From contig CAMJBT010000011.1 of NCBI GenBank assembly GCA_946403965.1, positions 1-60,998 of the forward strand: DNA of 60,998 nucleotides, written 5' to 3'. Shown in pieces: positions 5,876 to 29,575 of this stretch. Each line of letters starts with the position of its first letter. Position 1 is the first letter of the stretch. The stretch comes from an uncultured Pseudobutyrivibrio sp. (GTDB lineage Bacteria; Bacillota; Clostridia; Lachnospirales; Lachnospiraceae). The notes below the pieces were generated by a model, which was not told where the DNA came from, ran no database searches, and worked only from the letters and a program-made list of their open reading frames with translations. The position numbers and the translations under genes are program-made.

Positions 5876-6169
5876 ATGGCAGGTCAAATTAGAATAACAC
5901 CAGATCAGATGAGAGAGCGTGCAAGTCAGTACCGTAATGAGGCTGATACAGTAAATGGTGTAATCACAAACATGGATTCACTTCTTTCAAATCTTCAGAC
6001 TGAGTGGGAAGGTGCTTCTAGCGAGTCATACGCAGCACGTTATGAGGAGCTTAAGCCAGGATTCCAGAGAGCAGAAGAACTTATCCGTGAAATCGCTTCA
6101 GCACTTGATTCTACAGCTTCAATCGTAGAGACAACAGATAGCGATATTGCAGCACAGTTCCAGTCATAA
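5876..6169 (+). CDS. esxA: WXG100 family type VII secretion protein (EsxA-like)
   Basis: A 97-residue protein of the size and helical-hairpin character of WXG100 proteins, with the W-x-G turn as WEG at residues 44-46. Such proteins are both substrates and structural partners of the ESX/T7SS ATPase EssC and are exported as dimers. There is a strong RBS (TAGGAGGA) 8 bases before the ATG. It follows the surface protein and is itself followed by a hairpin, an arrangement that commonly sets a high transcript level for the small secreted protein. The essC gene is 12 kb downstream on the same strand, which supports the assignment. I saw no YxxxD/E export tail, consistent with EsxA-type rather than EsxB/CFP-10-type partners. 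Family assignment is very likely; the exact orthology is less certain. Confidence 0.93.
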   Translation: MAGQIRITPDQMRERASQYRNEADTVNGVITNMDSLLSNLQTEWEGASSESYAARYEELKPGFQRAEELIREIASALDSTASIVETTDSDIAAQFQS

Positions 6170-7385: not shown

Positions 7386-7918
7386 ACATGAATTATGTGA
7401 GACGCGTAGCATTAATATTGTTAACTATAGGGATATTTAATCTCTTTACAGGTTGTGGGTTAATAGACGATATCTCCTGGAAACTGCACGAGCGTGCCAT
7501 ACGACTAGCTGAATATGCTGAAAATGATGAAGTGGAGAGAATGATTAGCGAGACAACTGAATTAAATGAAAGACAGAAATATATAATGGCCATGGAAATT
7601 GGTAGGACAGAGTATAGCGAGCTGAAAGATGATCAGAAAGAAGCGGCTATAAAAATAGAGATGCTATATGAATATTTAGAAGAAAAATATCCTGATAAGG
7701 AATTTGAGTATGTAAATTTTGTATTAGAATCTCTCAGTTCACATCTTATAGTAAAAGAAACTTCAGATAAAAAACATAGATCAGTTGGGGCCACATTAAG
7801 ATGGGATAATAAAACAAAATCATATATATATTTGGATAATTATTATTTAAAAGTTACGGCTTCAGATGAATATGAAAAATTGATAGAAAAACATTTGAAG
7901 GAATACAATCCAAATGCA
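7382..7918 (+). repeat. 537-bp direct repeat, copy A
   Basis: Bases 7382-7918 match 10116-10652 with a single difference (ATATTTAA versus ATAATTAA near 7432/10166, giving Phe versus Ile in the signal peptide). Identity ends abruptly at codon 179/180 of the lipoproteins, indicating recent duplication or gene conversion of the 5' part only. Confidence 0.93.
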
Positions 7919-8245: not shown

Positions 8246-8250
8246 AAACT

Positions 8251-10059
8251 ATGGAATATACAGATAAGCAAATGATGCTTTTAGAACAAATAACATATTT
8301 AAATGATGATGTGTATAAAAATATAAAAAATGTTCAAGAATCTAAGGATAATGGGAAAAGTTCTGAGTTAAAAATTGAAAATTTATCTGATACAAGGAAG
8401 ATGACATCAGTTGAACAGCTGGTTAAGAGTTTTACTGATAAGGATATAGAAGCTCTGGAAACAATTGGTAATAATCCAATACTAACTGAAGATGGAAAAA
8501 GTACATATATGTCAGGTGCTGAATGGGCTGCTGTTATTAAGGCGATTAAGTCAGATAGCAGTTTAATGAACTTACAAATATCAAATACAACATCGATAGA
8601 TAAGGAAAATGATGGATATAACATTGATGCGATGACCTTTTATGAAAAAGGGGATTCTAACAATGCAATTGTTTGCTTCAGAGGTACTTTAAATGGAGAA
8701 GAATGGGAAGATAATGCTGAGTATTTAGAGCTAGCTAGCACAGATAGAAACCAATCAGCCTTGCTTTATGTGGATAGTTTACCCTTTAAGAATGTAAGTG
8801 TAGTAGGGCATTCAAAAGGGGGCAACAAAGCTGCATACACATACTATAATTCAGATAAAGTGAAGTATTGTCTTGCAATGGATGCACCTGGATTTCCACC
8901 AGAGTTTTATAAGGAAAATGCTGCAATAATATCTAGCAAAAAAGGTAAAATACAAAGCTATGTCTTAGAAAGTGATTTTGTAAATATTTTAATGCTTCCA
9001 ATCCCAGGAGCTGAATATCATTATTGTAAAGGCTATGGTTTAGATGGCTTTTTTGAAAATCACAGTCCAAATAGTTATTTTAAGGTTTTATATGATAGTG
9101 AGAATCGGGTTAGCGGATTATCAGGAATGACTGAGGTCGATACCAATACCGGTGCTATGAAGTTATTGCATGACTTTACCGCGTTTGTGGCAATTGAAAT
9201 GCCGTATGGGGAAAGAATTAAGGTGGCGGATTATCTTGGGGATTTCCTAAAAATGGCTCTTGGTGATAATAAATATACTAAGAAGGACCTAGTAAAAAAA
9301 CTTCTTGGTGAACCAAGAACCTTAGCAAAAATATGTGCATATTGGAAAAAATATTGTGATGTATACGATATTGGAACTCCTGAGATAACTAATCTTATTT
9401 CATCTATTGCATTTAACAATGAACCTATTAAGGCTGGTGTGTCAACTGTTGGAATAGGATACGCGATTGGGGAAACAAGTGCAAGGCATCCTGTACTTGT
9501 TTCATCCCTTATTCCAGTATTGCTTTTAGTTTTTTTTACACAGAATGATAATGCAGAATTAAAAGATTTAATCGATTATTTAAATGAAAAATGGAAATCT
9601 GGTGAACTAAAGGATTTAGAGCAGTTCATTAATGATGAACTAGCTGAATTAGGTGGGATAAAAAAAAGAGAATCTTTAGATTATTCTTCATACTCATTTA
9701 GAAAATATAATTATACAAAAGCTGCTTATGATGCAATTCTTTTGGCAATTAAAGAGTTTGAAAATATAGAATACGATAATACAACAATCTGGACTAATTA
9801 TAGCGAAGAGGAATGGTTTGAAGATATTTCGGGTACTGAGGTTCAGGTGTCACTGAATACATTTATAAACCAGGTTTCAAAAGTTAACAAGAAGTGTAAG
9901 AAAGAGTTCAAAGATGTGTTTAATAAGCAATGGCAAATTGATGATAACTATTACAATAAAATGACTGATTTTATGGGAAGAATGAATTCATGTATTAATA
10001 AGCTTCAAAATCTACGAGATAGAATGGAATTCAATGTTTCGGATCAGCTTTTTCTTTAA
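8251..10059 (+). CDS. Alpha/beta-hydrolase lipase with helical C-terminus, probable T7SS effector (TslA-like)
   Basis: A 602-residue protein without a signal peptide. The N-terminal half is a lipase/Mbeg1-like (DUF2974) hydrolase: an oxyanion-type strand (IVCFRGT), the nucleophile elbow GHSKGG with Ser188, a following MDAPG acid loop, and a candidate catalytic His in ENHSPN about 85 residues later. A hydrophobic stretch lies near 405-430, then about 150 helical residues form the C-terminus. Ordinary LXG effectors have the helical targeting domain first; here catalysis comes first, the order described for staphylococcal TslA. Upstream small helical genes and flanking lipoproteins complete that parallel. 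The start is the ATG at 8251, after GGTGA; TTG 8239 and GTG 8242 are alternatives. The hydrolase fold is confident. Secretion, phospholipid substrate and toxicity are inferred. Confidence 0.85.
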   Translation: MEYTDKQMMLLEQITYLNDDVYKNIKNVQESKDNGKSSELKIENLSDTRKMTSVEQLVKSFTDKDIEALETIGNNPILTEDGKSTYMSGAEWAAVIKAIKSDSSLMNLQISNTTSIDKENDGYNIDAMTFYEKGDSNNAIVCFRGTLNGEEWEDNAEYLELASTDRNQSALLYVDSLPFKNVSVVGHSKGGNKAAYTYYNSDKVKYCLAMDAPGFPPEFYKENAAIISSKKGKIQSYVLESDFVNILMLPIPGAEYHYCKGYGLDGFFENHSPNSYFKVLYDSENRVSGLSGMTEVDTNTGAMKLLHDFTAFVAIEMPYGERIKVADYLGDFLKMALGDNKYTKKDLVKKLLGEPRTLAKICAYWKKYCDVYDIGTPEITNLISSIAFNNEPIKAGVSTVGIGYAIGETSARHPVLVSSLIPVLLLVFFTQNDNAELKDLIDYLNEKWKSGELKDLEQFINDELAELGGIKKRESLDYSSYSFRKYNYTKAAYDAILLAIKEFENIEYDNTTIWTNYSEEEWFEDISGTEVQVSLNTFINQVSKVNKKCKKEFKDVFNKQWQIDDNYYNKMTDFMGRMNSCINKLQNLRDRMEFNVSDQLFL

Positions 10060-10061
10060 TT

Positions 10062-10130
10062 AAGAAGCATTTTATTTTAATTGTAAAGTCGAAGAAGGAA
10101 AACTGTATTTTGGTGATGAACATGAATTAT
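10062..10130 (+). pseudogene. Remnant 3' end of a lost third lipoprotein gene
   Basis: These 69 bases match 10921-10990 (the end of lipoprotein copy 2, through its stop and into a following ATGAACATGAATTAT) with three substitutions and one missing T. The missing T shifts the frame just before the old stop. It lies between the lipase stop and the start of copy 2, so it is the scar of an earlier tandem copy removed by recombination. Confidence 0.8.
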
Positions 10131-10652
10131 GTGAGACGCGTAGCATTAATATTGTTAACTATAGGGATAATTAATCTCTTTACAGGTTGTGGGTTAATAG
10201 ACGATATCTCCTGGAAACTGCACGAGCGTGCCATACGACTAGCTGAATATGCTGAAAATGATGAAGTGGAGAGAATGATTAGCGAGACAACTGAATTAAA
10301 TGAAAGACAGAAATATATAATGGCCATGGAAATTGGTAGGACAGAGTATAGCGAGCTGAAAGATGATCAGAAAGAAGCGGCTATAAAAATAGAGATGCTA
10401 TATGAATATTTAGAAGAAAAATATCCTGATAAGGAATTTGAGTATGTAAATTTTGTATTAGAATCTCTCAGTTCACATCTTATAGTAAAAGAAACTTCAG
10501 ATAAAAAACATAGATCAGTTGGGGCCACATTAAGATGGGATAATAAAACAAAATCATATATATATTTGGATAATTATTATTTAAAAGTTACGGCTTCAGA
10601 TGAATATGAAAAATTGATAGAAAAACATTTGAAGGAATACAATCCAAATGCA
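10116..10652 (+). repeat. 537-bp direct repeat, copy B
   Basis: Partner of 7382-7918, one mismatch. The junction of identity with divergence falls inside the coding region (AATGCAA versus AATGCAG), so the repeat homogenises the signal peptide and N-terminal half only. Confidence 0.93.
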
Positions 10653-10976
10653 GATTTTTTCCTTGATGTAGAAGTCCATAGTGTTGATGCTGAAAACCAA
10701 ACTGTAAATATAGAAAATACTGGGGGAAGTATAACTATAGTTATTGAAAACGTCTTTGAAGATGAGGCTGAAGGTAGAGAATACGTTGCCGATTTTGTTG
10801 ATTGGCTGCTGGAAAATAATGCCAAATATGGGGCAATGATTAAATTTATAGCTTTAAACAAAGAAGATTTTGAAATGGCAACATATTCAAATTACTTAAG
10901 GTGTTTTTATTTTGAAAATAAAGAGGCATTTTATTTTAATTGTAAAATCGAAGAAGGAAAACCGTATTTTTGGTGA
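10116..10976 (+). CDS. Lipoprotein, probable immunity protein (copy 2)
   Basis: A 286-residue lipoprotein with lipobox LFTGC, a near-perfect duplicate of the 7382 gene over the first 179 codons but with a distinct C-terminal domain (about residues 180-286). The C-terminal part still shares the fold pattern and the final FW. The ATG at 10116 is equivalent to the copy 1 start; an upstream TTG at 10110 is closer to the AGAAGGA ribosome site and is possible. It follows the lipase by 57 bases across a decayed remnant of another copy. A constant N-terminal half with variable C-terminus suggests that specificity lies in the C-terminal domain. It may protect against a related lipase of other strains (an orphan immunity gene); that is inference. 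Confidence 0.8.
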   Translation: MNMNYVRRVALILLTIGIINLFTGCGLIDDISWKLHERAIRLAEYAENDEVERMISETTELNERQKYIMAMEIGRTEYSELKDDQKEAAIKIEMLYEYLEEKYPDKEFEYVNFVLESLSSHLIVKETSDKKHRSVGATLRWDNKTKSYIYLDNYYLKVTASDEYEKLIEKHLKEYNPNADFFLDVEVHSVDAENQTVNIENTGGSITIVIENVFEDEAEGREYVADFVDWLLENNAKYGAMIKFIALNKEDFEMATYSNYLRCFYFENKEAFYFNCKIEEGKPYFW

Positions 10977-11044: not shown

Positions 11045-11854
11045 GTGAATGATTTGTTAGAAATATCAATGATTGTATTTGGAGAATTACTTGTTTTGTT
11101 TGTGTTAGTTGTTTTTGAGGTATTACCAGGAAACAATTATAAAAAGCATATACATCAAATTCAACTAGTTATCTCAATGATAGGAACCGCAATAGTGGTA
11201 ATAGATATCCTAGTTATGTATTTTAATCCACAGTTAGTTTGGGCTACAAACGATTTAATGGATATTGAAGCCTTTAAATATATATTGTTTATCCATGTAA
11301 TAATATTAGCCTCAAGTGCATATAAATATAGAAGCATAATTAAAAACGGAAACAGTAATGTAGAATTCACATTAAAAAAAGAAGAATATACGTTAAGTGA
11401 TGAGTTTGATTTTTCATTTGGTAATTTTTCCATACCTAATATTAAAAGGGCGGCAATATGTAATGACTTTATAATCATATTCGGTGGAAGAGCGCCAACT
11501 CGAGAAGTTGATGCTAAGTATATATGTAGAAAAATAGGTGAAAAACAATATGAATGTCTTTCGTTTGAAGTTTTAGATGAAAAGACTATTGGGGATATAT
11601 TGTCACAAATAGGCACGGTTAGCTTAGTTATTATTTTTAGCATACTTCCTATTTTATTTGTAGGATATGGACATAAATGGAGCAACCCTGATATACGTAC
11701 CTTTATTGGAAATATCAATACACACCTGTTTCTAGTAGGCTTTGGTTTGATTACTATAAAGCTATTTAAGTCAGTCAATGGTATTACAAAATATATATTT
11801 TTATTGTTTGGTTTTATGGTTATCGTGGTGAGCATATTGAGTATATTTGTTTAA
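11045..11854 (+). CDS. Polytopic membrane protein of unknown function
   Basis: About 269 residues. Hydrophobic segments at roughly 8-26, 40-60, 77-93, 193-212, 228-243 and 247-267 flank a soluble domain (about 95-188). No family is recognised. It starts at GTG 11045 or, more likely from the AGGTGA spacing, TTG 11054. It is the last gene of the A/T-rich cargo module, 68 bases after lipoprotein copy 2, and ends before the promoter region of the kinase/FHA operon. Multi-pass proteins next to T7SS effectors are often immunity proteins against membrane-acting toxins, but here no second toxin gene remains, so it may be an orphan. The soluble insert could be cytoplasmic or external; the topology is not resolved. 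Confidence 0.7.
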   Translation: MNDLLEISMIVFGELLVLFVLVVFEVLPGNNYKKHIHQIQLVISMIGTAIVVIDILVMYFNPQLVWATNDLMDIEAFKYILFIHVIILASSAYKYRSIIKNGNSNVEFTLKKEEYTLSDEFDFSFGNFSIPNIKRAAICNDFIIIFGGRAPTREVDAKYICRKIGEKQYECLSFEVLDEKTIGDILSQIGTVSLVIIFSILPILFVGYGHKWSNPDIRTFIGNINTHLFLVGFGLITIKLFKSVNGITKYIFLLFGFMVIVVSILSIFV

Positions 11855-11912
11855 GAATGATGGACTTATTTTAGGGGCGTGAGTCAATATCTGTCCAACA
11901 TACAATTAAATT

Positions 11913-11948
11913 TTGTGAAAAAACAGCAAACTGGTTATTATTTCACAA
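11913..11948. promoter_or_regulatory. TTGTGAAA / TTTCACAA inverted repeat upstream of the kinase/FHA operon
   Basis: A perfect 8-bp inverted repeat (11913-11920 and 11941-11948) with a 20-base spacer, 122 bases before the first start codon of the operon. The half-site resembles the one at 1553-1581 upstream of the other secretion operon and a Rex half-site, but the spacing is far wider than a Rex box. A candidate operator or cruciform. Confidence 0.4.
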
Positions 11949-12069
11949 TTTTGTTAAATGTAGTTAGTAATATGTGGAATATAAGGGATAATGTCGGATT
12001 AGGCTTTTATTTGGAATAATAGTTGGATGAACAGTAAATAAAACTGTTTTGATAAAAGGAGATTTAAAA

Positions 12070-13617
12070 ATGAAAGTAGTAAAAAAAATAGTTGCATTGG
12101 TACTAACCATAGGAATGTTTTTACCTGTAAGCATAGTTTGTACTGCAGCTTCAAATTCAAATCCAGCAGTACCAAGTGATGCCAGTGAAGGTATTGTGCA
12201 GGTAAACACAGTAGCTGTTGATGCAGATGGCAAGAAGTATGTTGTGTATGGCGGCGCTGGATTCTTGGTTGGAGATACTGAGGGCTCAGAGTACGTTATT
12301 ACATGCAATCATGTGGTAAACCCTGACGGCGATATAAAGAGTGAAGCTTTGGATTTCTATGGATTAAATAGTGGTGATGCAGGCGAAATTACTTATTCAA
12401 CAGAAGTCGTGGTTGAAGGAGATGTTGTCCTTAATGCAAATATACTTACTAATAGTGAAGATATGGACATGGCAGTGCTTTCATTACCTCAGCCTATTTA
12501 TACCAGAGTGCCATTACCTATTTTGACATCAGACACATATGAGGTGGCAGATGTGCCTTATAAGGCAGGAGATAAAGTATATTCATACGGCTATCCTGCT
12601 GAAATAACTTATGAATCTGAGACTCAGTATTATTCAACTAAAGATATTAAATCAGCTCAAGGTGAAATAGTTGATTTGATTATGTTTGAAGGAATTCAGA
12701 TGATAGAAAACAATGTTAATGCAGATTTTAGCGTCTATGGCGGTCCATTGGTGGACGAGAATGGATTTGTTATAGGACTGAATTTACCAGTTACAGATGG
12801 AAATAATTGGTGTGCACTCGATTCTACAAAGATAACAAAGGTACTGGATGGTCTTGGAGTAGGCTATGCAAAGGTTCAGGCAGTTCCTAAAGAGGAAAAG
12901 AAGTCTGCTAGTGAGGATGGTGATTCAAAAGGTACACCAGTTCAGACTGAGACAAAGGAACCTATTGAAAATGGTAATTCTACAAAAACAGATTTTTCTG
13001 AGTCAATAATTATGATAGTGGCATTAGCTGCAGTTTTTGTTGTGGCAGTTGTTGTATTAACTATCGTAATGTTACTTTTAAACAAGAAGCGTAAAGCAAC
13101 TTCTGCTGTAGAGAAACAATCAAAATATCAGGGCCCAAGCTATGATATGCTTGGCACTCAGACTGTTGTGGCAGGTGCAGCAGCTAAAACAGTACCGGAT
13201 TTTGCCTCATCTCAGCCTGCTTTTTCAAGTGATGAGACAACAGTTCTTGGCGCAGATGCGTTGAACACAGGCAATGAAGGTGAAACTGAGTTGCTGAGTG
13301 AGGATATGGCACAAGAAGAAATCAAGCTTGGAAGTTTATTTAGAAAAAGAACTTCTGAGACTATCGAGATTACAAAATCAGATTTTGTGATTGGTAAAGA
13401 TAAATATAATGCTGATTATTGCATTGACAATAATAAGGCTATTAGTAGACAGCACGCAATTATTACCGCAGGAAGAAACGGAGCTTACATCAAGGATTGT
13501 GATTCTACAAATGGCACATGGATAAATGGAACTAAACTTGAAAGTGGTCGTTTAGTATTACTAAATAATGGCGATATTATCAAGTTATCAAATGAAGAAT
13601 TCGAGTACCAAATATAG
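12070..13617 (+). CDS. Pseudo-trypsin / TM / FHA signalling protein A
   Basis: A 515-residue protein: signal peptide (about 1-28), an extracellular trypsin/HtrA-like domain (about 38-268), one TM helix (about 312-337), a cytoplasmic linker, and a C-terminal FHA domain (about 438-512) with SRQH (459-462) and NGTWING. His81 (CNHVV) and Asp133 (DMDMAV) of the triad are kept, but the serine before GGPL is Tyr223, so the protease is probably dead. The linker holds DETTVLGAD (Thr390/391) and GETELL, phosphothreonine-type motifs like those FHA proteins bind. The start at 12070 is chosen over 12049 because AAAGGAGA lies 6 bases upstream and the signal peptide begins there. First gene of the kinase/FHA/EssC operon. 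Probably a receptor reading an extracellular ligand or cell-wall state. Confidence 0.88.
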   Translation: MKVVKKIVALVLTIGMFLPVSIVCTAASNSNPAVPSDASEGIVQVNTVAVDADGKKYVVYGGAGFLVGDTEGSEYVITCNHVVNPDGDIKSEALDFYGLNSGDAGEITYSTEVVVEGDVVLNANILTNSEDMDMAVLSLPQPIYTRVPLPILTSDTYEVADVPYKAGDKVYSYGYPAEITYESETQYYSTKDIKSAQGEIVDLIMFEGIQMIENNVNADFSVYGGPLVDENGFVIGLNLPVTDGNNWCALDSTKITKVLDGLGVGYAKVQAVPKEEKKSASEDGDSKGTPVQTETKEPIENGNSTKTDFSESIIMIVALAAVFVVAVVVLTIVMLLLNKKRKATSAVEKQSKYQGPSYDMLGTQTVVAGAAAKTVPDFASSQPAFSSDETTVLGADALNTGNEGETELLSEDMAQEEIKLGSLFRKRTSETIEITKSDFVIGKDKYNADYCIDNNKAISRQHAIITAGRNGAYIKDCDSTNGTWINGTKLESGRLVLLNNGDIIKLSNEEFEYQI

Positions 13618-13619
13618 TT

Positions 13620-14420
13620 ATGTTATTTACAATTGATGCCTATTCGGATATAGGAATAAGAAAAAAAGTAAATCAAGATTCATTAATAATCAAGCAGGCA
13701 CGGACCAGTTCAATGGGCCGTGTCTGCTTTGCTTGTTTGTGTGATGGTATGGGAGGATTGTCACAGGGGGAAATCGCCAGTGCGTCCTTTGTTAATAGAA
13801 TGGGAAAATGGTTTGAAAATGAATTTCCTCATTTAATAATGCCTTCAGAGGTGACAGAGGATTTGTCAAAGCCATCTACATTCACAAATGGACAGCAAGA
13901 CGATTGTTTTCGCCAAATTGAATCCCAGTGGTCTCTTATTGCAAACCAGATGAATCAAGGCTTGAAACAATATGGAGCTGAGAACGGAATAAGACTTGGC
14001 ACAACTGCAGTAGTAATTATTTTAATTGGAAATGAATATCTTGTTATGAGCGTTGGCGATTCCAGAGCTTACCAATTCAACAAGAAGAATATTAAGCAAA
14101 TAACTCATGACCAGAGTTATGTTCAGCAACAGATGGATATGGGACGAATGACTCCGCAGGAAGCAGCAGTTAGCTCACAAAAAAGTGTGTTGCTACAGTG
14201 CATAGGGGCTTCAGAAAATGTATTTCCCGACTTCTTCAGAGGTACTTATGAAAAGAAAAACTATTTCCTTTTATGTTCTGACGGCTTATGGAGGCTTTTA
14301 ACTCCAGAGGAAATAATCAGTATTGGGCCACAAAAGGATGGCGTAAAACGTTTAACAGAGCTTGCGTTACAGCGTGGAGAAACTGACAATATTTCAGGTT
14401 TAGTGATTGGAGCAAAATAA
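13620..14420 (+). CDS. PP2C-family serine/threonine phosphatase
   Basis: A 266-residue soluble PPM/PP2C phosphatase. The metal-binding motifs are visible: N-x-D near residues 18-20, DGMGG (42-46), GDSRAY, SDGLW and the C-terminal DNISG. There is no membrane segment. It starts two bases after the stop of the FHA gene with no obvious RBS and ends immediately before the kinase ATG, so all three are translationally coupled. Such phosphatases reverse the action of the adjacent Hanks kinase, and here the likely substrates are the threonine motifs in the FHA proteins and the small TM protein. The enzyme class is secure; substrates are inferred. Confidence 0.95.
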   Translation: MLFTIDAYSDIGIRKKVNQDSLIIKQARTSSMGRVCFACLCDGMGGLSQGEIASASFVNRMGKWFENEFPHLIMPSEVTEDLSKPSTFTNGQQDDCFRQIESQWSLIANQMNQGLKQYGAENGIRLGTTAVVIILIGNEYLVMSVGDSRAYQFNKKNIKQITHDQSYVQQQMDMGRMTPQEAAVSSQKSVLLQCIGASENVFPDFFRGTYEKKNYFLLCSDGLWRLLTPEEIISIGPQKDGVKRLTELALQRGETDNISGLVIGAK

Positions 14421-16103
14421 ATGTTAGAAATTGGGTCTGTTATTGATGGTAAATACAAGATATTAAATAAAATAGGCCAAGGAGGAATGAGCATTGTTTA
14501 TCTGGCGATGAATGAAAGAGCTAATAAACAGTGGGCTATCAAGGAAATCCGAAAGGATGCCATGGCAAATTCTGATATCACTATGCAAAGCTTGCGAAAT
14601 GAAATAGAAATGCTTAAAAATCTTTCACATCCAAATTTACCAAGCATAGTGGATATTATCGATTATGAGGATACCATTCTTATAGTTATGGATTACGTAG
14701 AGGGGAACACCCTAAGCAAGGCTGTAAATGAATTTGGCGCTCAACCACAAGAGTATGTTATAGAGTGGGCAAAGCAGCTTTGTAATGTGCTTGGCTACCT
14801 ACATTCTCAGATTCCACCTATTATTTATAGAGATTTAAAACCTGGAAATATTATGCTAAAACCTGATGGCACAATAGTTCTTATCGATTTTGGTACAGCA
14901 AGACAGTATAAGGTGGAAAACACAGAGGATACTACATGCTTGGGAACTCGAGGATATGCTGCACCAGAGCAGTTCGGAGGTCATGGACAGACTGATGCTC
15001 GAACAGATATATATTGTCTTGGAACTACCATGTACCATCTTGTTACAGGTAAAAATCCTAGTGAGCCACCGTATGAAATATATCCTATTCGCTATTGGAA
15101 CGGTGGATTATCCCAAGGATTAGAACAAATTATTCTCAAATGTACACAGTTAGACCCAGCTAGAAGGTACCAGAGTTGTGCTCAGGTTTTATATGATTTA
15201 GAGCATTATTATGAGTTGGATAATTCATATAGAAATAAGGAAAAGGCCAAGATGATTACCTTTGGTATAACATTGTTCTTGGCAATTATATGTGGGTTAG
15301 GTGCTTACTTAGCTCATAGTCACTCTACGACATTTCAGGCTGAAAGTTATGAGGAAATGTTGGAAAAAAGTGGTACCTACGAGACTATAGATGAAATGAA
15401 AAAAGCATATAAGGAAGCAGTCTCAGTGGATCCAACAAAAGCTGAGGCATATATTGACCTGCTGGACAAAATCTATTTGTCGGATGAAGTCTTTTCAGAG
15501 GACGAAGCGCTAGAGCTTAGAGAATTGTTGATTCAGACAAAAGGCAAATCTACATATGAAGAGTTGTTGAACAAGAATAAAGAGGGGTATTGTCTTTTTG
15601 CTTATCGTCTTGGACTTGCATATTTTTACAGTTATGAAGGAGAGGGAAACAAACAGCAGTCTGCATATTGGCTTAATAAAGCAGCAGAGGGCGATTTGGG
15701 TGAAAATCGAAATGCCAGAGCAAAGCGACTTGGGGCCATTGCTTCTTATTACGTGAATTTAGGATCTATTGACAAAACCGGCGATAGTCAGATTGACTAT
15801 GCCCAATATTGGAATGATTTAGTAGCTGTTTGTAAAGGCGATATTGCAAAGGAAGATAATGCTAACACAGCACTTGTTATTTACAAGGAAATGACATCTC
15901 AGATTTATAGTAATTTACAGAATTTTGCTAAGGCGGGAGTTTCATATTCAGATATGGAGCTTCAGCTTATCAATATCGAACAGCACGTACGCGATGATAT
16001 AAATGGAACTGAGGCCGAGGATTCGGAGCTTGTTCAGGAATTGGAAAAAGATCTTGAGAACAATATAGAAAAAGCTCGTCAGGCAATAATGGTAGCTGAG
16101 TAA
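14421..16103 (+). CDS. Hanks-type Ser/Thr kinase with one TM helix and an external helical domain (possible EssB equivalent)
   Basis: A 560-residue protein. The kinase domain (about 10-262) has all catalytic elements: Gly-rich loop IGQGGMS, Lys41 (AIKEI), the RDLKPGN loop with Asp138, DFG 156-158, APE 181-183. A TM helix (about 279-298) is followed by about 260 external, helical, TPR/Sel1-like residues, with no PASTA domains. In T7SSb the core protein EssB/YukC has the same layout (cytosolic pseudokinase, TM, external helical domain). No other EssB is present, so this gene may be its counterpart that kept kinase activity. The alternative is a plain regulatory kinase. It begins one base after the phosphatase stop and precedes a small TM protein with likely phospho-motifs. 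Kinase activity is strongly supported; EssB equivalence is inference. Confidence 0.93.
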   Translation: MLEIGSVIDGKYKILNKIGQGGMSIVYLAMNERANKQWAIKEIRKDAMANSDITMQSLRNEIEMLKNLSHPNLPSIVDIIDYEDTILIVMDYVEGNTLSKAVNEFGAQPQEYVIEWAKQLCNVLGYLHSQIPPIIYRDLKPGNIMLKPDGTIVLIDFGTARQYKVENTEDTTCLGTRGYAAPEQFGGHGQTDARTDIYCLGTTMYHLVTGKNPSEPPYEIYPIRYWNGGLSQGLEQIILKCTQLDPARRYQSCAQVLYDLEHYYELDNSYRNKEKAKMITFGITLFLAIICGLGAYLAHSHSTTFQAESYEEMLEKSGTYETIDEMKKAYKEAVSVDPTKAEAYIDLLDKIYLSDEVFSEDEALELRELLIQTKGKSTYEELLNKNKEGYCLFAYRLGLAYFYSYEGEGNKQQSAYWLNKAAEGDLGENRNARAKRLGAIASYYVNLGSIDKTGDSQIDYAQYWNDLVAVCKGDIAKEDNANTALVIYKEMTSQIYSNLQNFAKAGVSYSDMELQLINIEQHVRDDINGTEAEDSELVQELEKDLENNIEKARQAIMVAE

Positions 16104-16121
16104 ATATAAGGAAGTAATAAT

Positions 16122-16679
16122 ATGTTTAATTCAAATGCAACAACTATAAATGAGCAAATGTCATTTTACTCAACGCTGTCAATCGTGTTAATGGCCATCG
16201 CCATAGTTTTACTCGTGGCAGCTATAGTAATGTGGTTTATTTTTAAAATTCCACATTCTTTTAGAGTGCTTACAGGTGCAGGCGTTGAAAAGGAAATTAG
16301 ACAATTGTCTTCTGCCACTAAATCAGGTGCCGGATATATTGATAATGGTAAAAATAAGGCTGTTATATCATGGAACACATCTACTAACCTAAATACAAAA
16401 ACACAAGATGATGAAACAGAATTATTAATTAATAATAGCCAATATACTATGAATAACCTGGTGGATAATGAAGCAACCATGGTTCTTGACCAGGGAGCTC
16501 CTTTAGAGTCAAACATGGCATTTGACAGTCAGAACTTTGATCCTGAGGCAACCATGGTTTTGGATGATTTGAATTTTGATCCCGAGGCAACCACTGTACT
16601 TGATGGAAACCAAAAGCCAGATGGTTTTGAAATAGAAGAAGAGATTATTATTACTGGCAACAATATAAAGAGGAATTAG
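16122..16679 (+). CDS. Small TM protein with repeated EAT-x-VLD motifs (probable kinase substrate/FHA ligand)
   Basis: A 185-residue protein with one TM helix (about 19-42) and an acidic cytoplasmic tail. The tail has three copies of the motif E-A-T-x-V-L-D (Thr119, Thr144, Thr157/158), the last two inside a 13-residue tandem repeat starting NFDPEAT, plus DDETELL near 97-102. Similar (D/E)xTTVL sequences occur in both FHA proteins of the operon. Actinobacterial GarA/OdhI carry an ETTSVF-type phosphothreonine switch that binds an FHA domain, so these are plausible phospho-sites. It lies 18 bases after the kinase and directly before FHA protein B. I know no named family for it. The scaffold role is inference. 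Confidence 0.8.
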   Translation: MFNSNATTINEQMSFYSTLSIVLMAIAIVLLVAAIVMWFIFKIPHSFRVLTGAGVEKEIRQLSSATKSGAGYIDNGKNKAVISWNTSTNLNTKTQDDETELLINNSQYTMNNLVDNEATMVLDQGAPLESNMAFDSQNFDPEATMVLDDLNFDPEATTVLDGNQKPDGFEIEEEIIITGNNIKRN

Positions 16680-16681
16680 TT

Positions 16682-18166
16682 ATGTATAAGAAAGCATATG
16701 CTGTTTTTTTGATATTTATCCTTGTAATAGGTATTGGTGTTAATCTTAATACCTTTGTTTCTATTGCATCGGATGATACAGATGTGATTGAAACTGCGAA
16801 AAATGGCGTAGTTCAGATTAATTGTGTATACAAGGATAGTGATGGAATTAGTCATATCTTTAAAGGTGCATCAGGCATTTTAATTGGTGATTCTGAAAAG
16901 GAAGAGTATGTTATTACTTCATTGCAGAGAATGAATCCTGAGGTGGAGGAAAAGAATGCTTTTCTTTCATCGGTTGGAGTTGGCGCTGATGAAAGAGAGC
17001 GGGCACAGCTTGAATATGAGGTTGTGATTGAGAATGATATCACAGCGGCAGCATCACTAGTTAGCAGTAGTGATGATTTGGATATGGCTGTGTTTAAGCT
17101 GTCTCAAGTGCTTTTCAATAGAACACCAATGAAGTTTATTTATTCCAAGGATGGTGATCCAAACGCCTATAATGCTGTAGATACAGCATATGCTTTGGGA
17201 TTCCCAAGTCCAATAGATTACGAATCTGAGACAATATACTATTCAAACGATAGAGTGAATAAGATAGCAGGTCAGCTTAGTAATGTAATAACAGAAGGAG
17301 ATATTCAGTTCTTAGAGCACAAGGCCGAAATAGGGGAAAATAACGTAGGAGGTCCACTTATTACTGCTGATGGCGAAGTGATAGGTATGAACGCCCTTCG
17401 TACAGACGGAAACTATTATTATGCTGTTAGTTCAAACACCATAGTTAAGGTGTTAAATGGTATGGGAATAGCCTTTGATGGTGTGTCTTTTGAAGATAAA
17501 GCAGCCAGTGCAAAGGCAGCAGAAGAGGAAGAGAATAAGAAAAATAAAGAAGATAAAAAGAAGGTTGTGGAGGTTCATACTGAAACTCCAAAGTGGGTTC
17601 TTCCTGTTATTATCGCTTTTGCAGTATTGCTTGTTGCAGCTATTACAGCTGTGATTATTTTGCTAGTTAAAAATCTGAAAATGAAAGATGCAAATAGTAA
17701 TAATGATAATTTAGGCTCATCAGCTCAATCCACAATACCTTATCAATTTCAGCCGTCTGTTCCAGCAGGTGTATCAGGTGAACTTGGCTCTGATACCACA
17801 GTATTAGGAGCAGTCAGTGCACCAGTAAACTCACAAATGGGCATGAATATGGCAGCTCCTTCAGGTCAATTAAATGGTGGAAATTTACTTCGTAAGAAGA
17901 ACAATGAAACTATTGCAATTCTGAAGAATACATTCTGCCTTGGCAAAGATGATTTACATTGTGATTATTGTATTCGTGATAACAACACTATCAGCAGACA
18001 GCATGCTATTATCACAGTGACTGGTAATGCTGCATTTATATCAGATAATCAATCCAAAAACGGCACTTTTTTGAATGGTGTAATGCTTGTGGCAGGCCAA
18101 CCTCAGGAACTTAGAGATGGAGATGTGATTCGCCTATCCAATGAGGAGTTCGTATATACGAAGTAA
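16682..18166 (+). CDS. Pseudo-trypsin / TM / FHA signalling protein B
   Basis: A 494-residue paralogue of protein A with the same order: signal/anchor (about 5-28), trypsin-like domain (about 38-265), a charged KK/EE linker, TM helix (about 304-329), and C-terminal FHA (about 417-490; SRQH, NGTFLNG). It has lost two triad residues: the His position is Gln82 (ITSLQRM aligned with ITCNHVV of A) and the Ser position is Val222 (NNVGGPL); Asp134 remains. Shared unusual motifs such as DYESETIYYS confirm common descent with A. The cytoplasmic linker carries SDTTVLGAV (Thr372/373). RBS AGAGGAA precedes the ATG; essC follows after 52 bases. A non-enzymatic sensor is likely. With A it may form a heteromeric receptor; that is inference. 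Confidence 0.87.
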   Translation: MYKKAYAVFLIFILVIGIGVNLNTFVSIASDDTDVIETAKNGVVQINCVYKDSDGISHIFKGASGILIGDSEKEEYVITSLQRMNPEVEEKNAFLSSVGVGADERERAQLEYEVVIENDITAAASLVSSSDDLDMAVFKLSQVLFNRTPMKFIYSKDGDPNAYNAVDTAYALGFPSPIDYESETIYYSNDRVNKIAGQLSNVITEGDIQFLEHKAEIGENNVGGPLITADGEVIGMNALRTDGNYYYAVSSNTIVKVLNGMGIAFDGVSFEDKAASAKAAEEEENKKNKEDKKKVVEVHTETPKWVLPVIIAFAVLLVAAITAVIILLVKNLKMKDANSNNDNLGSSAQSTIPYQFQPSVPAGVSGELGSDTTVLGAVSAPVNSQMGMNMAAPSGQLNGGNLLRKKNNETIAILKNTFCLGKDDLHCDYCIRDNNTISRQHAIITVTGNAAFISDNQSKNGTFLNGVMLVAGQPQELRDGDVIRLSNEEFVYTK

Positions 18167-18218
18167 AAGGAAATGCCTTACAGAATATCAAAAATGATGT
18201 TTTTTACAAGAGGTGCCT

Positions 18219-21200
18219 ATGAAATATAAGATTACAATATTCAATAGTAAAGTATACAAAGAGGTAACTGTAGAGGATTCTTTTGAAGGCTTGCTGATTG
18301 GTACTAGTAGAAACTGCCAGGTGCAATTCCTTACAGAGGATTTTGGTAGAGAATTCATTATTCGCCTAAAGAATAATCAAGGGTCTGTGATAGTTTCAGC
18401 TGATTCAGGAATTTATTTTGCTGCTAATGGAACGGAAGCGGCGTCATTTGAAGTGCGAGTTGGCGGTGAAATAGTTGCATATGATGAATTGACAAAACAG
18501 GAGCTTATTAGTATCCAATTTGATGCTGATTTTACTACAGCTCAGGATAACTATAACTATGTAATTAATATTTCAGGATTAAATACAATCTCCATAGGTG
18601 GGGCAGGAAATGCCACTATACGTTTCTTTGATAGAGAACTGAAAGATGGTGTAGTGAATCTCTTCCGGGCAAGTGGTGGATTTCAGATAGATGATAGTCA
18701 GCTTACATATGGCACTACTATCAATGGAACTTTACACAAAGATAGAAATGAACTTTTTAAATCTAAGGACTTTTTAGGAATCTATGGACACCTATTTTAT
18801 TTAGACGGAGAAATGCTTTATGCCTCTGACACTTTGGGAATAGCCACAAGTCTTCCAAATCAGTTGATTGAGGCGAAGAATATTCATTTCCAATATCCCA
18901 AATATACAAGAAGTGTTCGGCAACACTATAAGGTACCAAATGAAAAAATAGATGTATTGCCTCCAAAGTCAAAGCAAAACCAAGATCATAAGAATCTGTT
19001 TATGATTCTATTACCAACAGTTATGATGCTTTGTGTCATGGTTGGTCTCAGAGGTTTGATGATGGGCAGCAATATTGCCTATGTTCTAATGTTTGCAGCT
19101 TCTGGTGTTATAAGTGGTGTCTTGGCAGTAATTAATTATTTCCAGGATAAAAAGAAGAGGGCTGAGAAAGAGGAACAGAGGATTGCATACTACAACAGCT
19201 ACATTCAAAGCAAAGAGAATGAAATCGTAGAATCCAGGGCCGATGAAAAGACTATTCAGTTACGCATGAATCGCTCTGTTGAAGATACAATGAATTCAAT
19301 TCAACATTTTGATGGAAATCTATTTTCTCATTCAAAGGATGAGGAGGATTTTTTGGATGTTTGGATTGGAACAGGACTTGTAAAGTCGGAGCTTCAGGTA
19401 GGCTTCAAACCACAGGAGTATATTGATATTGATGATTCGATGATGGATATTCCAAAACAGATTCATGACAAATATCAATATATTGATAATATGCCAGTTG
19501 TACTTCATCTCAGGGATGCGAATGCTGTTGGTTTTGTTGCAGACAGAACAAAGCTTTATCAGCTGATGAAGAACATGATAGTAACAATAGCCGGTGAATA
19601 TTTTTACAAGGAAGTAAAGATGTTTTTAATCCTTGGTGAAAATGATGTTCCGGATTTTTCATGGGCTCGCTGGTTCAAAAATATGTCTGCAAACAATGGC
19701 GGCATGCGATATTTCATGTATGACGATGAGAGTGCAAAACAGGCATTGGAATTTTTGTACAATGAGCTTTCAGCTCGAGAGCAGTTAAAGCCACAGATAA
19801 TAAAAGAATTGCCTTTCTATGTTGTGTTTGTATATCGTTCAGAAAAGATAAGCAGACATCCAGTTATGGATTATGTTGAAAAGGCTGCAAGCCTTGGATT
19901 TGTTTTTCTATTCTGGGAAGAGCAGACAGAGCTTTTGAATATGTTTTGTTCAAAGCTTGTCTTTTTGGAAAGCAATACCTACAACGGATATATTCAGGAT
20001 GCAGAGGATGGAAAGCAGATTCAGCCATTTGTCTATCCACATACAAGCAGAGCAGAGGTGCAGCAGCTTGCTCTTCGCTTGGGGTGCGTCTATATAGATG
20101 AAATGAGTTTGGAGGAAACGCTCACAAAGAATATTACCTTGTATGAGCTCCTTGGAATAATGAATGCCTATGACCTTAATCTCAGTGAACGTTGGGGTAA
20201 TTCAAAAATATACAAGAGTATGGCGGCTCCACTCGGCGTTAAAAGTAATGGCGAGACAGTTTATTTGGATATTCATGAGAAATATATGGGACCTCACGGT
20301 CTTGTGGCAGGTACTACTGGTTCCGGAAAATCAGAGATAATCCAGTCCTATATTCTATCAATGGCAACATTGTTCCATCCGTACGAAGTGGGATTTGTAA
20401 TTATCGATTTTAAGGGTGGTGGTATGGCAAATCAATTTGAAAATTTGCCACATCTTACTGGAACAATTACAAATATTGATGGTAAACAAATTGATCGTTC
20501 GCTTCGCTCTATCAAAGCGGAACTATTGAGGCGTCAATCTTTATTTTCAGAAGCCAAGGTAAACAAAATAGATGATTATATAAGCTTATATAAAGAAGGT
20601 CAGGTACAAACACCACTTCCACATTTGATTCTTGTGGTGGACGAATTTGCAGAACTAAAGAGTGAACAACCAGAGTTTATGAAAGAATTGATTTCTGCTG
20701 CCAGAATAGGTCGAAGCCTTGGTGTTCATTTGATTCTTGCAACTCAAAAACCAGCTGGAGTTGTTAATGATCAGATTTGGTCAAACTCAAAATTCAAATT
20801 GTGTCTGAAGGTGCAGGATAAATCAGATAGTAACGAAGTGATCAAATCCCCACTTGCTGCTGAGATTAGAGAGCCTGGCCGAGCTTATTTACAGGTTGGA
20901 AACAACGAGATTTTTGAGTTGTTTCAGTCTGCATATTCAGGTGCGCCAGCAGTTATTAGCAGCACTGAAAATAAACGTAAATACGAAATCGATGTAGTGG
21001 ATTTAGCTGGTCGAAGAAGTGTCCTTTACAAACAAAAAGGTGAAAAGGTAAAGGGAGACCAGAATCAGTTAGAGGCTATTGTAGCTAGAATCAATGAGTA
21101 TTGTGAAGAGAATCATATAGAAAAGCTACAGGAAATATGTTTGCCACCACTAGCAGAAGTAATCGATTTCCCAATGGATTCCAAGCTTAAGTATGAGGAA

Positions 21201-22763
21201 AATGATATTATTGCGGAAATTGGTGTGTATGACGATCCAGACAGCCAGACTCAGGGAATGCACGCAATAAATCTTACAAAAGAAAATGTCATGGTGATTG
21301 GCTCGTCTCAATCTGGAAAGACGAATCTGCTTCAGACAATAATAAGAAGTGTTACCACAAAGTATGATCCTTCCAAAGTTACTATTTATGCAATCGACTT
21401 TGCATCAATGGTATTAAAGAATTTCGAAGGACTGAATCATGTGGGAGGAGTGGTCACTTCATCAGAGGATGAGAAGCTAAAGAATCTGTTTAAATTGCTT
21501 TACTCAGAAATTGAATCACGAAAGAAGAAGCTTCTTAAAGTGGGTGTTAGCTCATTTGCTGCATATAGAGAGGCTGGAATGACAAATCTACCGCAGGTTC
21601 TCCTGTTGGTTGATAATCTTACAGCACTTAGAGAAATGTATTTTACAGAAAATGATGATTTGCTTGGTATATGTCGAGAAGGCCTTACAGTTGGTATAAC
21701 TGTAATAATTGCAAACACTCAGACTGCCGGAATGGGATATAAATATCTCAGTAACTTCTCTTGTCGCATTGCTATGTTTTGCAATGATACAAATGAATAT
21801 GGAACTCTTTTTGAACATTGTAGAGAACGAATTGAGGATATTCACGGAAGGGCGCTTATTGAGATTAATAAAAATCATCTGGATTGCCAGACTTACCTGG
21901 CATTTGAAGGTGATAAGGAAATTGAAAGAGTCAATTCAATCAGAGCATTTGTGGATGAGCGAAATGCTGCAAATCCTGATATGTATGCTCGAAAGATTCC
22001 TGAAATACCAAAAGTTCTTCAGTATGATACTGTCGTTAGGGAATACAATAGCTACACCACCAAGAAGTTTGAACTTGTTGTGGGCCTGAACTATGCAAAT
22101 GTAGAGCCTTATGTAATTAATGTAGGTGCAATGGGGGCCATTGGTGTTGTAGGCAGAACTGGTAATGGCAGACACAATTTTATCAGATACACTGTAAATA
22201 TGTTAGAGCAGATGTATCCTGACATGACAGAGGTACACATAATTGATGGAATCGATAGAAGTTTGGGCGTGCTTAAGGATAGACCAAATGTAGTGACCTA
22301 TTCGTTGACGGAGGATGCCGCAGTTGACTTGATATCAAAGGCAGAAATAATTCTTAAAGCCAGATACGAGGCCCTTACTAATGGAGAGGATTCAGTGCTT
22401 GAACAGGCTAAATTGATTCTTCTAGTATTAAATACAGTTGATGCAGTGAATGCTATTACAGCCAACCCGGCAGCGCTTGCGTCCTACAAAAATATAATTG
22501 GCAAATACAAAAATATGAAAGTAGGAATTATTATAGGTGGAATAGAAAATGAGGCTATTCCATACAATGCTTCAGAAATTCTCAAGAAGCTGAAAGAACA
22601 GAAGCATTTCATGCATTTTGATGATTTGGGCACATTTAAAGTGGCGGAAGTACCGATGACAGCAGTACGTGCGTTTAAGAAGAAGGTTGAATTGGGGGAT
22701 GCATATTATCTGAAGGATAATTTGATTGTGAAGCTAAAAACTCCATTAAATAAAGAAATTTAA
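18219..22763 (+). CDS. essC: Type VII secretion FtsK/SpoIIIE ATPase EssC
   Basis: A 1514-residue membrane ATPase, the motor of T7SSb. In order: two N-terminal FHA-like domains (about 1-190, lacking the SxxH/NG residues and so probably not phospho-binding), two TM helices (about 263-305), and three FtsK/SpoIIIE ATPase domains. D1 has Walker A GTTGSGKS (698-705) and Walker B LILVVDEF; D2 has GSSQSGKT (1028-1035); D3 has the degenerate GRTGNGR (1312-1318), as usual for EssC. The length matches Firmicute EssC. The start is ATG 18219 after AGAGG; GTG 18213 is an upstream alternative. Last gene of the kinase/FHA operon, which ties phospho-signalling to secretion. In T7SSb the variable EssC C-terminus selects the cargo. 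Very confident. Confidence 0.97.
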   Translation: MKYKITIFNSKVYKEVTVEDSFEGLLIGTSRNCQVQFLTEDFGREFIIRLKNNQGSVIVSADSGIYFAANGTEAASFEVRVGGEIVAYDELTKQELISIQFDADFTTAQDNYNYVINISGLNTISIGGAGNATIRFFDRELKDGVVNLFRASGGFQIDDSQLTYGTTINGTLHKDRNELFKSKDFLGIYGHLFYLDGEMLYASDTLGIATSLPNQLIEAKNIHFQYPKYTRSVRQHYKVPNEKIDVLPPKSKQNQDHKNLFMILLPTVMMLCVMVGLRGLMMGSNIAYVLMFAASGVISGVLAVINYFQDKKKRAEKEEQRIAYYNSYIQSKENEIVESRADEKTIQLRMNRSVEDTMNSIQHFDGNLFSHSKDEEDFLDVWIGTGLVKSELQVGFKPQEYIDIDDSMMDIPKQIHDKYQYIDNMPVVLHLRDANAVGFVADRTKLYQLMKNMIVTIAGEYFYKEVKMFLILGENDVPDFSWARWFKNMSANNGGMRYFMYDDESAKQALEFLYNELSAREQLKPQIIKELPFYVVFVYRSEKISRHPVMDYVEKAASLGFVFLFWEEQTELLNMFCSKLVFLESNTYNGYIQDAEDGKQIQPFVYPHTSRAEVQQLALRLGCVYIDEMSLEETLTKNITLYELLGIMNAYDLNLSERWGNSKIYKSMAAPLGVKSNGETVYLDIHEKYMGPHGLVAGTTGSGKSEIIQSYILSMATLFHPYEVGFVIIDFKGGGMANQFENLPHLTGTITNIDGKQIDRSLRSIKAELLRRQSLFSEAKVNKIDDYISLYKEGQVQTPLPHLILVVDEFAELKSEQPEFMKELISAARIGRSLGVHLILATQKPAGVVNDQIWSNSKFKLCLKVQDKSDSNEVIKSPLAAEIREPGRAYLQVGNNEIFELFQSAYSGAPAVISSTENKRKYEIDVVDLAGRRSVLYKQKGEKVKGDQNQLEAIVARINEYCEENHIEKLQEICLPPLAEVIDFPMDSKLKYEENDIIAEIGVYDDPDSQTQGMHAINLTKENVMVIGSSQSGKTNLLQTIIRSVTTKYDPSKVTIYAIDFASMVLKNFEGLNHVGGVVTSSEDEKLKNLFKLLYSEIESRKKKLLKVGVSSFAAYREAGMTNLPQVLLLVDNLTALREMYFTENDDLLGICREGLTVGITVIIANTQTAGMGYKYLSNFSCRIAMFCNDTNEYGTLFEHCRERIEDIHGRALIEINKNHLDCQTYLAFEGDKEIERVNSIRAFVDERNAANPDMYARKIPEIPKVLQYDTVVREYNSYTTKKFELVVGLNYANVEPYVINVGAMGAIGVVGRTGNGRHNFIRYTVNMLEQMYPDMTEVHIIDGIDRSLGVLKDRPNVVTYSLTEDAAVDLISKAEIILKARYEALTNGEDSVLEQAKLILLVLNTVDAVNAITANPAALASYKNIIGKYKNMKVGIIIGGIENEAIPYNASEILKKLKEQKHFMHFDDLGTFKVAEVPMTAVRAFKKKVELGDAYYLKDNLIVKLKTPLNKEI

Positions 22764-23189
<426 letters not shown>

Positions 23190-26298: not shown

Positions 26299-26474
26299 AT
26301 AGCCCTCCCAATTAAATTTTATTCAACTAATTATGAACCGTGATAATAGAAAGGTCAAGGAGTCCATAAATTCCCTTAAATTAGTTTGAGTCAATTTTTT
26401 CGTACATTTTTCACAAAGCTATAAAAACTTCCTTGTAATATAGGAATATATTATTGAGTATGATGAGGTGGATT

Positions 26475-26726
26475 ATGGAAAACAGTTTGATTATAAGATT
26501 TAGAAATGTAAAGAAAAACGAGGAATTTGATATAGAAGTACCGTCAGATATTACTGCTAATGACTTGATATATGGCTTGAAGAAGAGCTTCAATCTGGAC
26601 ATAAACATGGATGACCCAAAGCAATGCTACTTACGAGCTGAAAATCCAATTGCTCTTATAAAGGGGGAGGTACAGTTGGAACGTCTTGGACTTAGAGATG
26701 GTTCTGTTATTTTTTACGAGAGGTAG
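26475..26726 (+). CDS. yukD: YukD/EsaB-like ubiquitin-fold protein
   Basis: An 83-residue protein with a ubiquitin-like pattern: beta strand (LIIRFRNV), EFDIEVPSDITANDLI leading into a helix, and a closing LGLRDGSVI strand as in YukD/EsaB, the small cytosolic component of T7SSb. ATG 26475 is preceded by GAGGTG at the right spacing; upstream in-frame ATGs (26454, 26460, 26463) lack one. In Bacillus and Staphylococcus this gene lies inside the secretion operon; here it is 3.7 kb downstream of essC, separated by ktr genes and nudC, and heads an operon with a hybrid sensor kinase. The fold assignment comes from pattern and context, not a search. EsaB is essential for T7SS activity in S. aureus. 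Confidence 0.78.
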   Translation: MENSLIIRFRNVKKNEEFDIEVPSDITANDLIYGLKKSFNLDINMDDPKQCYLRAENPIALIKGEVQLERLGLRDGSVIFYER

Positions 26727-26753
26727 TTTGTATTGATAAATGGGGGTGAAAGT

Positions 26754-29573: not shown

Positions 29574-29575
29574 AT

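Follow-up and report, generated by a model that had tools for sequence, protein, structure and literature searches.

An EssB-less, T7SSj-like type VII secretion locus of Pseudobutyrivibrio and its putative portable phosphothreonine signalling cassette

The stretch of DNA analysed here (the window) comprises 60,998 nucleotides from an uncultured Pseudobutyrivibrio sp. of the Lachnospiraceae (assembly GCA_946403965.1, contig CAMJBT010000011.1). It contains a locus of a type VII secretion system (T7SS), in which the open reading frames (ORFs) for adaptor A, a PP2C phosphatase, a Hanks-type kinase, a small transmembrane (TM) protein designated K, adaptor B and the ATPase EssC follow one another on the + strand between 12070 and 22763 (Table 1). 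On balance it is probable that the locus represents a T7SSj-like system under a portable phosphothreonine (pThr) cassette, in which the kinase would write on the tails of K and of the adaptors, an FHA scaffold would license EssC and PP2C would reset the system. The first-pass annotation of this DNA had proposed a kinase-phosphatase-FHA circuit within a T7SSb operon. Its observation is right: the circuit is intact, lies inside the EssC operon and recurs with EssC, and pThr control like that of the type VI secretion system (T6SS) is plausible. Its interpretation is in part correct and in part foreshadowed in the literature, and the locus does not belong to T7SSb.

The head-to-tail run of the six genes was confirmed: the gaps are, from 5' to 3', 2, 0, 18, 2 and 46 bases (the last being 52 bases from the EssC ATG), and family scans support every gene except K, for which Pfam and NCBIfam scans gave no family. 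The phosphatase scored 164.6 bits with NF033484, under the cut-off of 230, and EssC 1122 bits with TIGR03928 (T7_EssCb_Firm, cut-off 778). The kinase has one TM segment and a helical extracytoplasmic TPR/Sel1-like domain, the profile of which matches PDB TPR chains over approximately 35-40 residues. Its residues K41, D138, K140, N143 and D156-F157-G158 are invariant in an alignment of 50 sequences. The T7SS machine reaches past 12070-22763, as the Ig-like protein, WXG100 and YukD are also encoded in the window; an EssC-type ATPase and a WXG100 protein, by which a T7SS is generally recognised, are thus both present.

The comparisons were made with 299 draft genomes of one family (the family set), taken as Lachnospiraceae on the strength of the nearest named relatives, in which absence of a gene near a contig end is weak evidence. 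Genes were called by a longest-ORF script, and family labels were assigned with profiles whose seeds were proteins of the window or of the loci, with a Pfam check on a subset. A genome was considered EssC-positive (EssC+) when it matched TIGR03928 at E<=1e-100. Whole-genome searches scored the first 2, 5 or 8 candidates per genome and the counts of places are therefore lower bounds. The EssC neighbourhoods cover 81 of 85 places, the other four being fragments, and the counts exclude L001-L003 as well as L006, a duplicate of L005.

The window is largely colinear with G153, a genome of the same genus. The ratios of nonsynonymous to synonymous substitution rates (dN/dS) against G153, which are rough since dS mostly exceeds 1 (saturated), were 0.023 for the kinase, 0.053 for PP2C, 0.112 and 0.056 for adaptors A and B, 0.064 for K, 0.037 for EssC and 0.18 for the Ig-like protein (74% amino acid identity to its ortholog), so by this rough measure all seven genes are under purifying selection. 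Where this kinase type occurs, the called gene immediately upstream of the kinase is PP2C in 40 of 55 cases and the one immediately downstream is K in 46 of 58 (family and named loci pooled, a few kinases being counted twice through overlapping stretches). These neighbour counts, together with the low dN/dS, indicate that the grouping of the six genes is not due to chance. The 46-base contact between adaptor B and EssC probably has a shorter history. In G153 and in L084, an uncultured Pseudobutyrivibrio sp. whose EssC is 75% identical to that of the window, YukD and other genes intervene between adaptor B and EssC; the contact was either not ancestral to the group or lost in both relatives, and we take it as recent.

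PF10140, which gave control matches in B. subtilis, detected no EssB in the genome from which the window comes (a 95% complete draft). The best EsaA match (TIGR03929) reached 42.7 bits against a cut-off of 122 and lies on another contig, nothing in the genome being above the cut-off. For EssA, the TIGR03927 model (cut-off 32.45) scored only 13.5 bits, with adaptor B as the match, PF10661 not being searched. Because the genome shows no EssB match and no EsaA above the cut-off, the locus is not T7SSb, the class to which it had first been assigned, and is classified from its sequence as a T7SSj-like, EssB-less variant of the type VII system. The census of EssB in the 62 of 80 family EssC loci that have at least 6 kb of upstream sequence agrees with the rejection of T7SSb membership: within 13 kb, at least one gene for a kinase, PP2C or a separate FHA protein is present at none of 10 genuine EssB loci, as compared with 44 of 52 EssB-less loci (Fisher 4e-7, kinship being ignored). 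Among these 52, a kinase of any type occurs in 27, PP2C in 15, FHA in 31 and all three in 5. An iterated EssB profile that reached kinase-type loci was rejected as drift over the TM/TPR region; a profile built exclusively from genuine EssB gave its matches at E<1e-10 in genuine EssB loci alone.

In a FastTree phylogeny of 147 EssC sequences the window groups with G153 and L084 at a local support of 100, inside a larger clade that is mainly of Lachnospiraceae and separate from a 28-row clade of Bacillus, Listeria and EssB-type family loci. A trypsin-FHA gene lies within 12 kb of essC in 15 of the 28 rows of the clade surrounding the window, in comparison to 1 of the 119 others, genes outside the fetched stretch not being counted.

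The portability of the cassette became apparent from a search with the kinase outside domain, which found at least 45 places at 100 bits or more in 42 genomes; 22 of these 42 genomes are EssC+, as compared with 50 of the 257 others (p 1.6e-5). Across the fetched neighbourhoods the conserved unit is PP2C-kinase-K-I, where I is the Ig-like protein. When 44 of the 45 entries (L190, with no kinase ORF called, was dropped) were sorted by the FHA partner within four genes, 11 modules had trypsin-FHA, 12 DUF6382-FHA, 3 another FHA protein and 18 no FHA. All 11 trypsin-FHA modules are in EssC+ genomes and none has Tad genes in the stretch. The DUF6382-FHA modules are in EssC+ genomes in 4 of 12 cases and have Tad genes in 8 of 12; the modules with other FHA proteins (2/3) and with no FHA (7/18) are also partly in EssC+ genomes. 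The PP2C-kinase-K-Ig-protein unit is thus portable.

A Pfam check of four Tad loci (L184, L180, L195 and L209) found the A24 prepilin peptidase and DUF5702 in each, and DUF6382-FHA was confirmed by Pfam in L184. The window's own genome carries its sole DUF6382-FHA gene in a Tad locus (contig C45) with a T2SSE ATPase and its trypsin-FHA genes in the T7SS locus, so the partition by adaptor type, DUF6382 with Tad and trypsin with T7SS, holds even inside one genome. DUF6382-FHA is not restricted to Tad, as it adjoins EssC in L032, L125, L127, L128 and many more loci. Tad-type loci with the kinase-PP2C-DUF6382-FHA-K unit, mostly together with the Ig-like protein, are L180, L184, L185, L188, L194, L195, L209 and L210.

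The trypsin-like-TM-FHA adaptors are narrower in their distribution. Full-length adaptors (at least 230 bits) were found in at least 19 places in 16 of the 299 genomes, and all 16 genomes are EssC+, as compared with 56 of the 283 others (p 3e-11; overall 72/299). Within 20 kb of essC lie 12 of the 19 places, and the remaining seven sit no more than about 5 kb from a contig end or on contigs shorter than 10 kb. A weaker full-length match of 115 bits (G147:C138, in an EssC+ genome) was not counted as an adaptor; nor were the many matches to a single domain, which in some cases come from genomes without EssC. By this distribution the trypsin-like FHA adaptor is a T7SS-specific part.

Of 32 distinct adaptors from family and named loci, 30 have retained all three FHA residues (Ser, His and Asn) and 9 the full protease triad. 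In the window, adaptor A has kept His and Asp with Ser replaced by Tyr, and adaptor B has Gln for His and Val for Ser. Since both window copies are without the Ser nucleophile and the triad is complete in only 9 of 32 adaptors, active protease receptors were rejected as an explanation. The protease domain of adaptor B nevertheless shows a dN/dS against G153 of 0.024 despite its degeneracy (adaptor A, 0.132). In MycP of T7SSa a structural role is separable from the protease activity, and by analogy we infer that the degenerate protease domain has a non-catalytic role outside the membrane. Four of the 32 adaptors (L034, L093, L095 and L101) keep His and Asp with Cys in place of Ser, a possible cysteine nucleophile.

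The candidate phospho-sites are acidic-T-x-x-L motifs, frequently arranged in tandem, in the tails of both K and the adaptors. There are four of them in the K protein of the window, and 8, 7, 5 and 5 in those of L127, L125, L034 and L032, respectively. With the pattern [DE]A?Tx[VIL]L fixed beforehand, and with the K family gathered by its first 70 residues only, 75 matches were found in 47 held-out K tails from outside the definition set, in comparison to a shuffle mean of 1.6 (maximum 6 in 500); 6 K loci were kept out of the motif test. T+3 is a position read by FHA domains, and Leu at T+3 was enriched five-fold in the held-out tails; pT+3 is named in the T6SS threonine-phosphorylation paper PMC3953482. 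The adaptor tails contain 31 motifs as compared with 0.2 expected, with at least one in 20 of 30 proteins, and the cytoplasmic tail of adaptor A holds DETTVL and GETELL. The activation loop of the kinase, EDTTCLGTRGYAAPE, resembles the acidic-T-x-x-L motif, as does the ETTS of GarA (PMC5448819).

No FHA domain was detected in the window EssC by Pfam at E<=0.1 or by the FHA profile, and no G-R/K..SxxH core was seen by eye, although 67 of 167 EssC ORFs in the whole set, those of other relatives, were matched by the FHA profile. The T-x-x-L tails of K and the adaptors are therefore probably better candidate FHA ligands than the window EssC with its degenerate-looking FHA folds. In L211, L171 and L088 the K arrays are uniform within a locus and different between loci (VTTKLDL, ETTVM, NETAPL), as if the specificities of writer and reader were co-evolving. 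In the T7SS locus L041 one kinase (11612-12940, - strand) has no outside domain and is joined in a single protein with a K-like TM segment; a second kinase-like protein is also encoded there.

Enzymes, candidate sites and readers are here assigned from sequence, and the steps that would join them are predictions. The kinase would sense an external cue via its TPR/Sel1-like outside domain and phosphorylate the acidic-T-x-x-L threonines on the K tail and on the cytoplasmic tails of both adaptors. The FHA domains of the adaptors would then bind the pT-x-x-L sites (pT+3 being Leu) and cross-link K, the adaptors and perhaps the activation loop of the kinase into a multivalent membrane scaffold, which may contact EssC and license or position it for secretion; PP2C would reverse the phosphorylation. 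The degenerate protease domain may act outside as a non-catalytic binding domain, and the type of adaptor would pick the machine, trypsin-like-FHA directing the cassette to T7SS and DUF6382-FHA to Tad pili and also to other T7SS. Precedents for such a mechanism are the PpkA-TssL-Fha pathway of T6SS (PMC3953482) and the recruitment of FhaA by phosphorylated MviN in mycobacteria (PMC12599244). A more tentative proposal, plausible but falling somewhat short of probable, is that the cassette fits T7SS or Tad by exchange of the FHA adaptor, that K is a multivalent pThr scaffold whose T-x-x-L array recruits the adaptor, so that the machine is built only when the kinase fires, and that the T7SS pseudoprotease reads the envelope or secretion state outside.

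A number of observations weigh against a cassette dedicated to EssC, and several of them favour the explanation that it is an independent envelope sensor which merely adjoins the T7SS, its outputs being cell-wall or surface-protein functions with no gating of EssC. Many kinase cassettes serve no T7SS: 20 of the 42 kinase genomes show no EssC, and only 9 of the 45 kinase places share a contig with essC at a distance of up to 20 kb, which the other 36 do not. Some modules show only PP2C/K/Ig protein, and the contact of adaptor B with EssC is absent in the nearest relatives. No kinase ORF appears in 14 of 35 fetched trypsin-FHA stretches; for L002, L027 and L177 among them a kinase is known just beyond the stretch, and short contigs account for some others, but over 14-24 kb there seems to be no kinase in L024, L093, L094, L100 and L130. 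The window EssC shows no pThr-binding FHA core, so that no phospho-link leading directly to EssC can be seen here. Motifs are only modestly commoner in K proteins with an FHA neighbour (31 of 39) than in those without (7 of 13; Fisher p 0.077, rank test p 0.016), and a dependence of the K motifs on a nearby FHA gene was set aside as weakly supported; in L198, five motifs occur although no FHA was called in the vicinity. The p-values, moreover, overstate independence because the genomes are related. Opposed to an independent sensor are the trypsin-FHA modules (11/11) and full-length adaptors (16/16) in EssC+ genomes, and the 12 of 19 adaptor places close to essC, with the other seven near contig ends or on short contigs. 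The sensor explanation is regarded as unlikely. The linkage to essC by which the first-pass annotation had proposed to judge its own idea thus gave a split outcome: the kinase unit lies more often away from essC, and the trypsin-FHA adaptors keep to EssC+ genomes. Because of this difference the kinase cassette is read as modular and the adaptor as T7SS-specific.

It is quite unlikely, but interesting in view of the mutual exclusion described above and of a known contact, that the active kinase stands in for EssB, its kinase domain docking on the EssC N-terminus like the YukC pseudokinase, with catalysis secondary. EssB and the kinase/PP2C/FHA loci exclude each other in the sample (0/10 vs 44/52), both proteins share the topology of kinase fold, TM and helical outside domain, and the pseudokinase domain of YukC contacts the FHA domain of YukB (PMC13037476). 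The catalytic residues of the kinase are, however, invariant, a kinase of any type lies within 13 kb in only 27 of 52 EssB-less loci, and the genuine-EssB profile gives no significant match to these kinases. That the kinase controls the T7SS genes transcriptionally, with the FHA adaptors doing something else, is very unlikely: a precedent in a Bacillota is IreK of Enterococcus (cited in PMC11217815), and histidine-kinase-like and receiver-like proteins (named by eye) are encoded downstream at 26733-31945, but the conserved unit contains no recognisable transcription factor and the readers and candidate substrates are membrane-bound neighbours.

The probable reading, a T7SSj-like system under a pThr cassette, has close published relatives. 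Garrett, Higginson and Palmer (2024; PMC11217815) described T7SSc-T7SSj. T7SSe and T7SSj have kinase, PP2C and FHA proteins, T7SSf has PP2C and FHA with no kinase found, and control by threonine phosphorylation was proposed with the T6SS parallel cited, so the idea, which the first-pass annotation had taken as undescribed, is already partly in print. The parts of T7SSj are A, B, C, D (kinase, TPR outside), F (PP2C), J (DUF6382+FHA), K and I (Ig-like), TsjK having one TM and an unstructured tail. By comparison with this published description, the window shares WXG100, YukD-like B, EssC, TPR-type kinase D, PP2C F, Ig-like I and small TM protein K, the K of the window being likened to TsjK by description and not by alignment. 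It differs in having two trypsin-like-TM-FHA adaptors instead of the DUF6382-FHA protein J, and in an EssC without a recognisable core, whereas T7SSj has a conserved pThr motif in the EssC FHA domains. T7SSe and T7SSd resemble it in the kinase, in Ig-like I and in small TM proteins, and T7SSe also in PP2C and an FHA protein; J there is a cytoplasmic DUF6382-FHA protein, while the FHA core of the window EssC is unrecognisable. As in T7SSf, the window EssC is among relatives that often have J, TadZ-like V and B beside EssC, but the window itself is without J and V, both being present in relatives such as L085, L093 and L125; and while T7SSf as described in PMC11217815 is without a kinase, of 52 loci with V at up to 12 kb, 20 also have a kinase at up to that distance, which in 7 cases is of the window type. 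T7SSb (the Ess/Yuk system of Staphylococcus and Bacillus) has in common the EssC family, WXG100 and EsaB/YukD, and is set apart by its EssB and EsaA, the former without a match and the latter under the cut-off in the window genome, which has an active-looking kinase, PP2C and FHA adaptors.

Outside the T7SS, the T6SS pathway (PpkA, PppA, Fha, TssL; PMC3953482) likewise unites a membrane kinase, a phosphatase and an FHA reader at a secretion machine; the machine is unrelated, and here the readers are membrane adaptors with an outside pseudoprotease and the candidate ligands multivalent arrays. GarA/OdhI (PMC5448819) is an FHA protein with an acidic-T-T phosphorylation motif in its own flexible tail, but it is a soluble metabolic regulator, whereas the present proteins are membrane-bound, with several motifs over two protein types. 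An FHA domain is known on a Tad ATPase class, fused to the class III CpaF (PMC12019362); here, beside Tad genes, the kinase, PP2C, K and the Ig-like protein are accompanied by a DUF6382-FHA protein encoded separately.

What the present analysis adds is that the cassette is portable, that a rule relates adaptor type to machine, and that candidate phospho-sites can be named. These results suggest that the T7SS "core" parts D, F, K and I form part of a signalling cassette of general use, which Tad pili share, only the adaptor being machine-specific, in which case the definition of T7SS subtypes would change. They also touch the long-open question of how type VII secretion is switched on, which becomes directly testable because a candidate writer, eraser, readers and exact threonines are named. 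The words 'Trypsin' and 'Lachnospir' are absent from the main text of PMC11217815, its passages on TseK and TsjK do not mention a motif array, and none of the titles or abstracts listed for trypsin-like FHA with T7SS, for DUF6382, or for Tad with FHA and kinase covers the cassette, supplements and subscription papers being outside the search.

Table 1. Features of the T7SS locus in the window
Feature	Position	Strand	Remarks
TsxI-like large surface protein, 1413 aa	1609..5850	+	signal peptide, Ig-like (Big_3/Big_13) repeats, C-terminal TM
WXG100 protein (TsxA/EsxA-like)	5876..6169	+	PF06013 4.9e-20; TIGR03930 1.3e-20, 73 bits
Lipase-like (Mbeg1) candidate T7SS substrate, 606 aa, with lipoprotein neighbours	7382-10976 overall
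Adaptor A	12070..13617	+	ORF open from TTG 12049, ATG 12070; order: signal peptide, trypsin-like domain, TM, cytoplasmic tail, FHA (signal peptide and TM read by eye); Pfam FHA 5.5e-17, Trypsin_2 3.8e-13
PP2C (PPM) phosphatase, TsxF-like	13620..14420	+	PF13672 (PP2C_2) 7.8e-11
Hanks-type Ser/Thr kinase, TsxD (TsjD)-like	14421..16103	+	Pkinase 7.4e-49
K (TsxK-like), 185 aa	16122..16679	+	one N-terminal TM, long cytoplasmic tail
K-tail array, four acidic-T-x-x-L motifs	16410..16607	+	DETELL, NEATMVL, PEATMVL, PEATTVL; candidate phospho-docking sites
Adaptor B	16682..18166	+	trypsin-like domain, TM, tail with SDTTVLG, FHA; Pfam FHA 5.8e-17, Trypsin_2 7.9e-9
EssC/TsxC ATPase	18213..22763	+	start GTG 18213 or ATG 18219
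YukD/EsaB-like ubiquitin-fold protein (TsxB)	26454..26726	+	PF08817 28.9 bits, barely above cut-off 27

The lipase-like gene is flanked by lipoprotein genes (7382-8245 and 10110-10976) whose products, compared by eye, are near-identical over the first ~180 residues and divergent at the C-termini; they look like duplicated immunity genes. YukD is displaced in the window, where it lies downstream of EssC, but is directly upstream of essC in G153. An 82-residue ORF at 22941-23189, between essC and a trkH-like gene, is presumably a C-terminal glycosidase remnant (an unscanned assignment), which suggests a past rearrangement near the displaced YukD. A second EssC is encoded elsewhere in the same genome (L025, G000:C100:1859-5698); it is nearest to the EssC proteins of Pseudobutyrivibrio ruminis, which are without a nearby trypsin-FHA gene, within the view that the contig ends allow.

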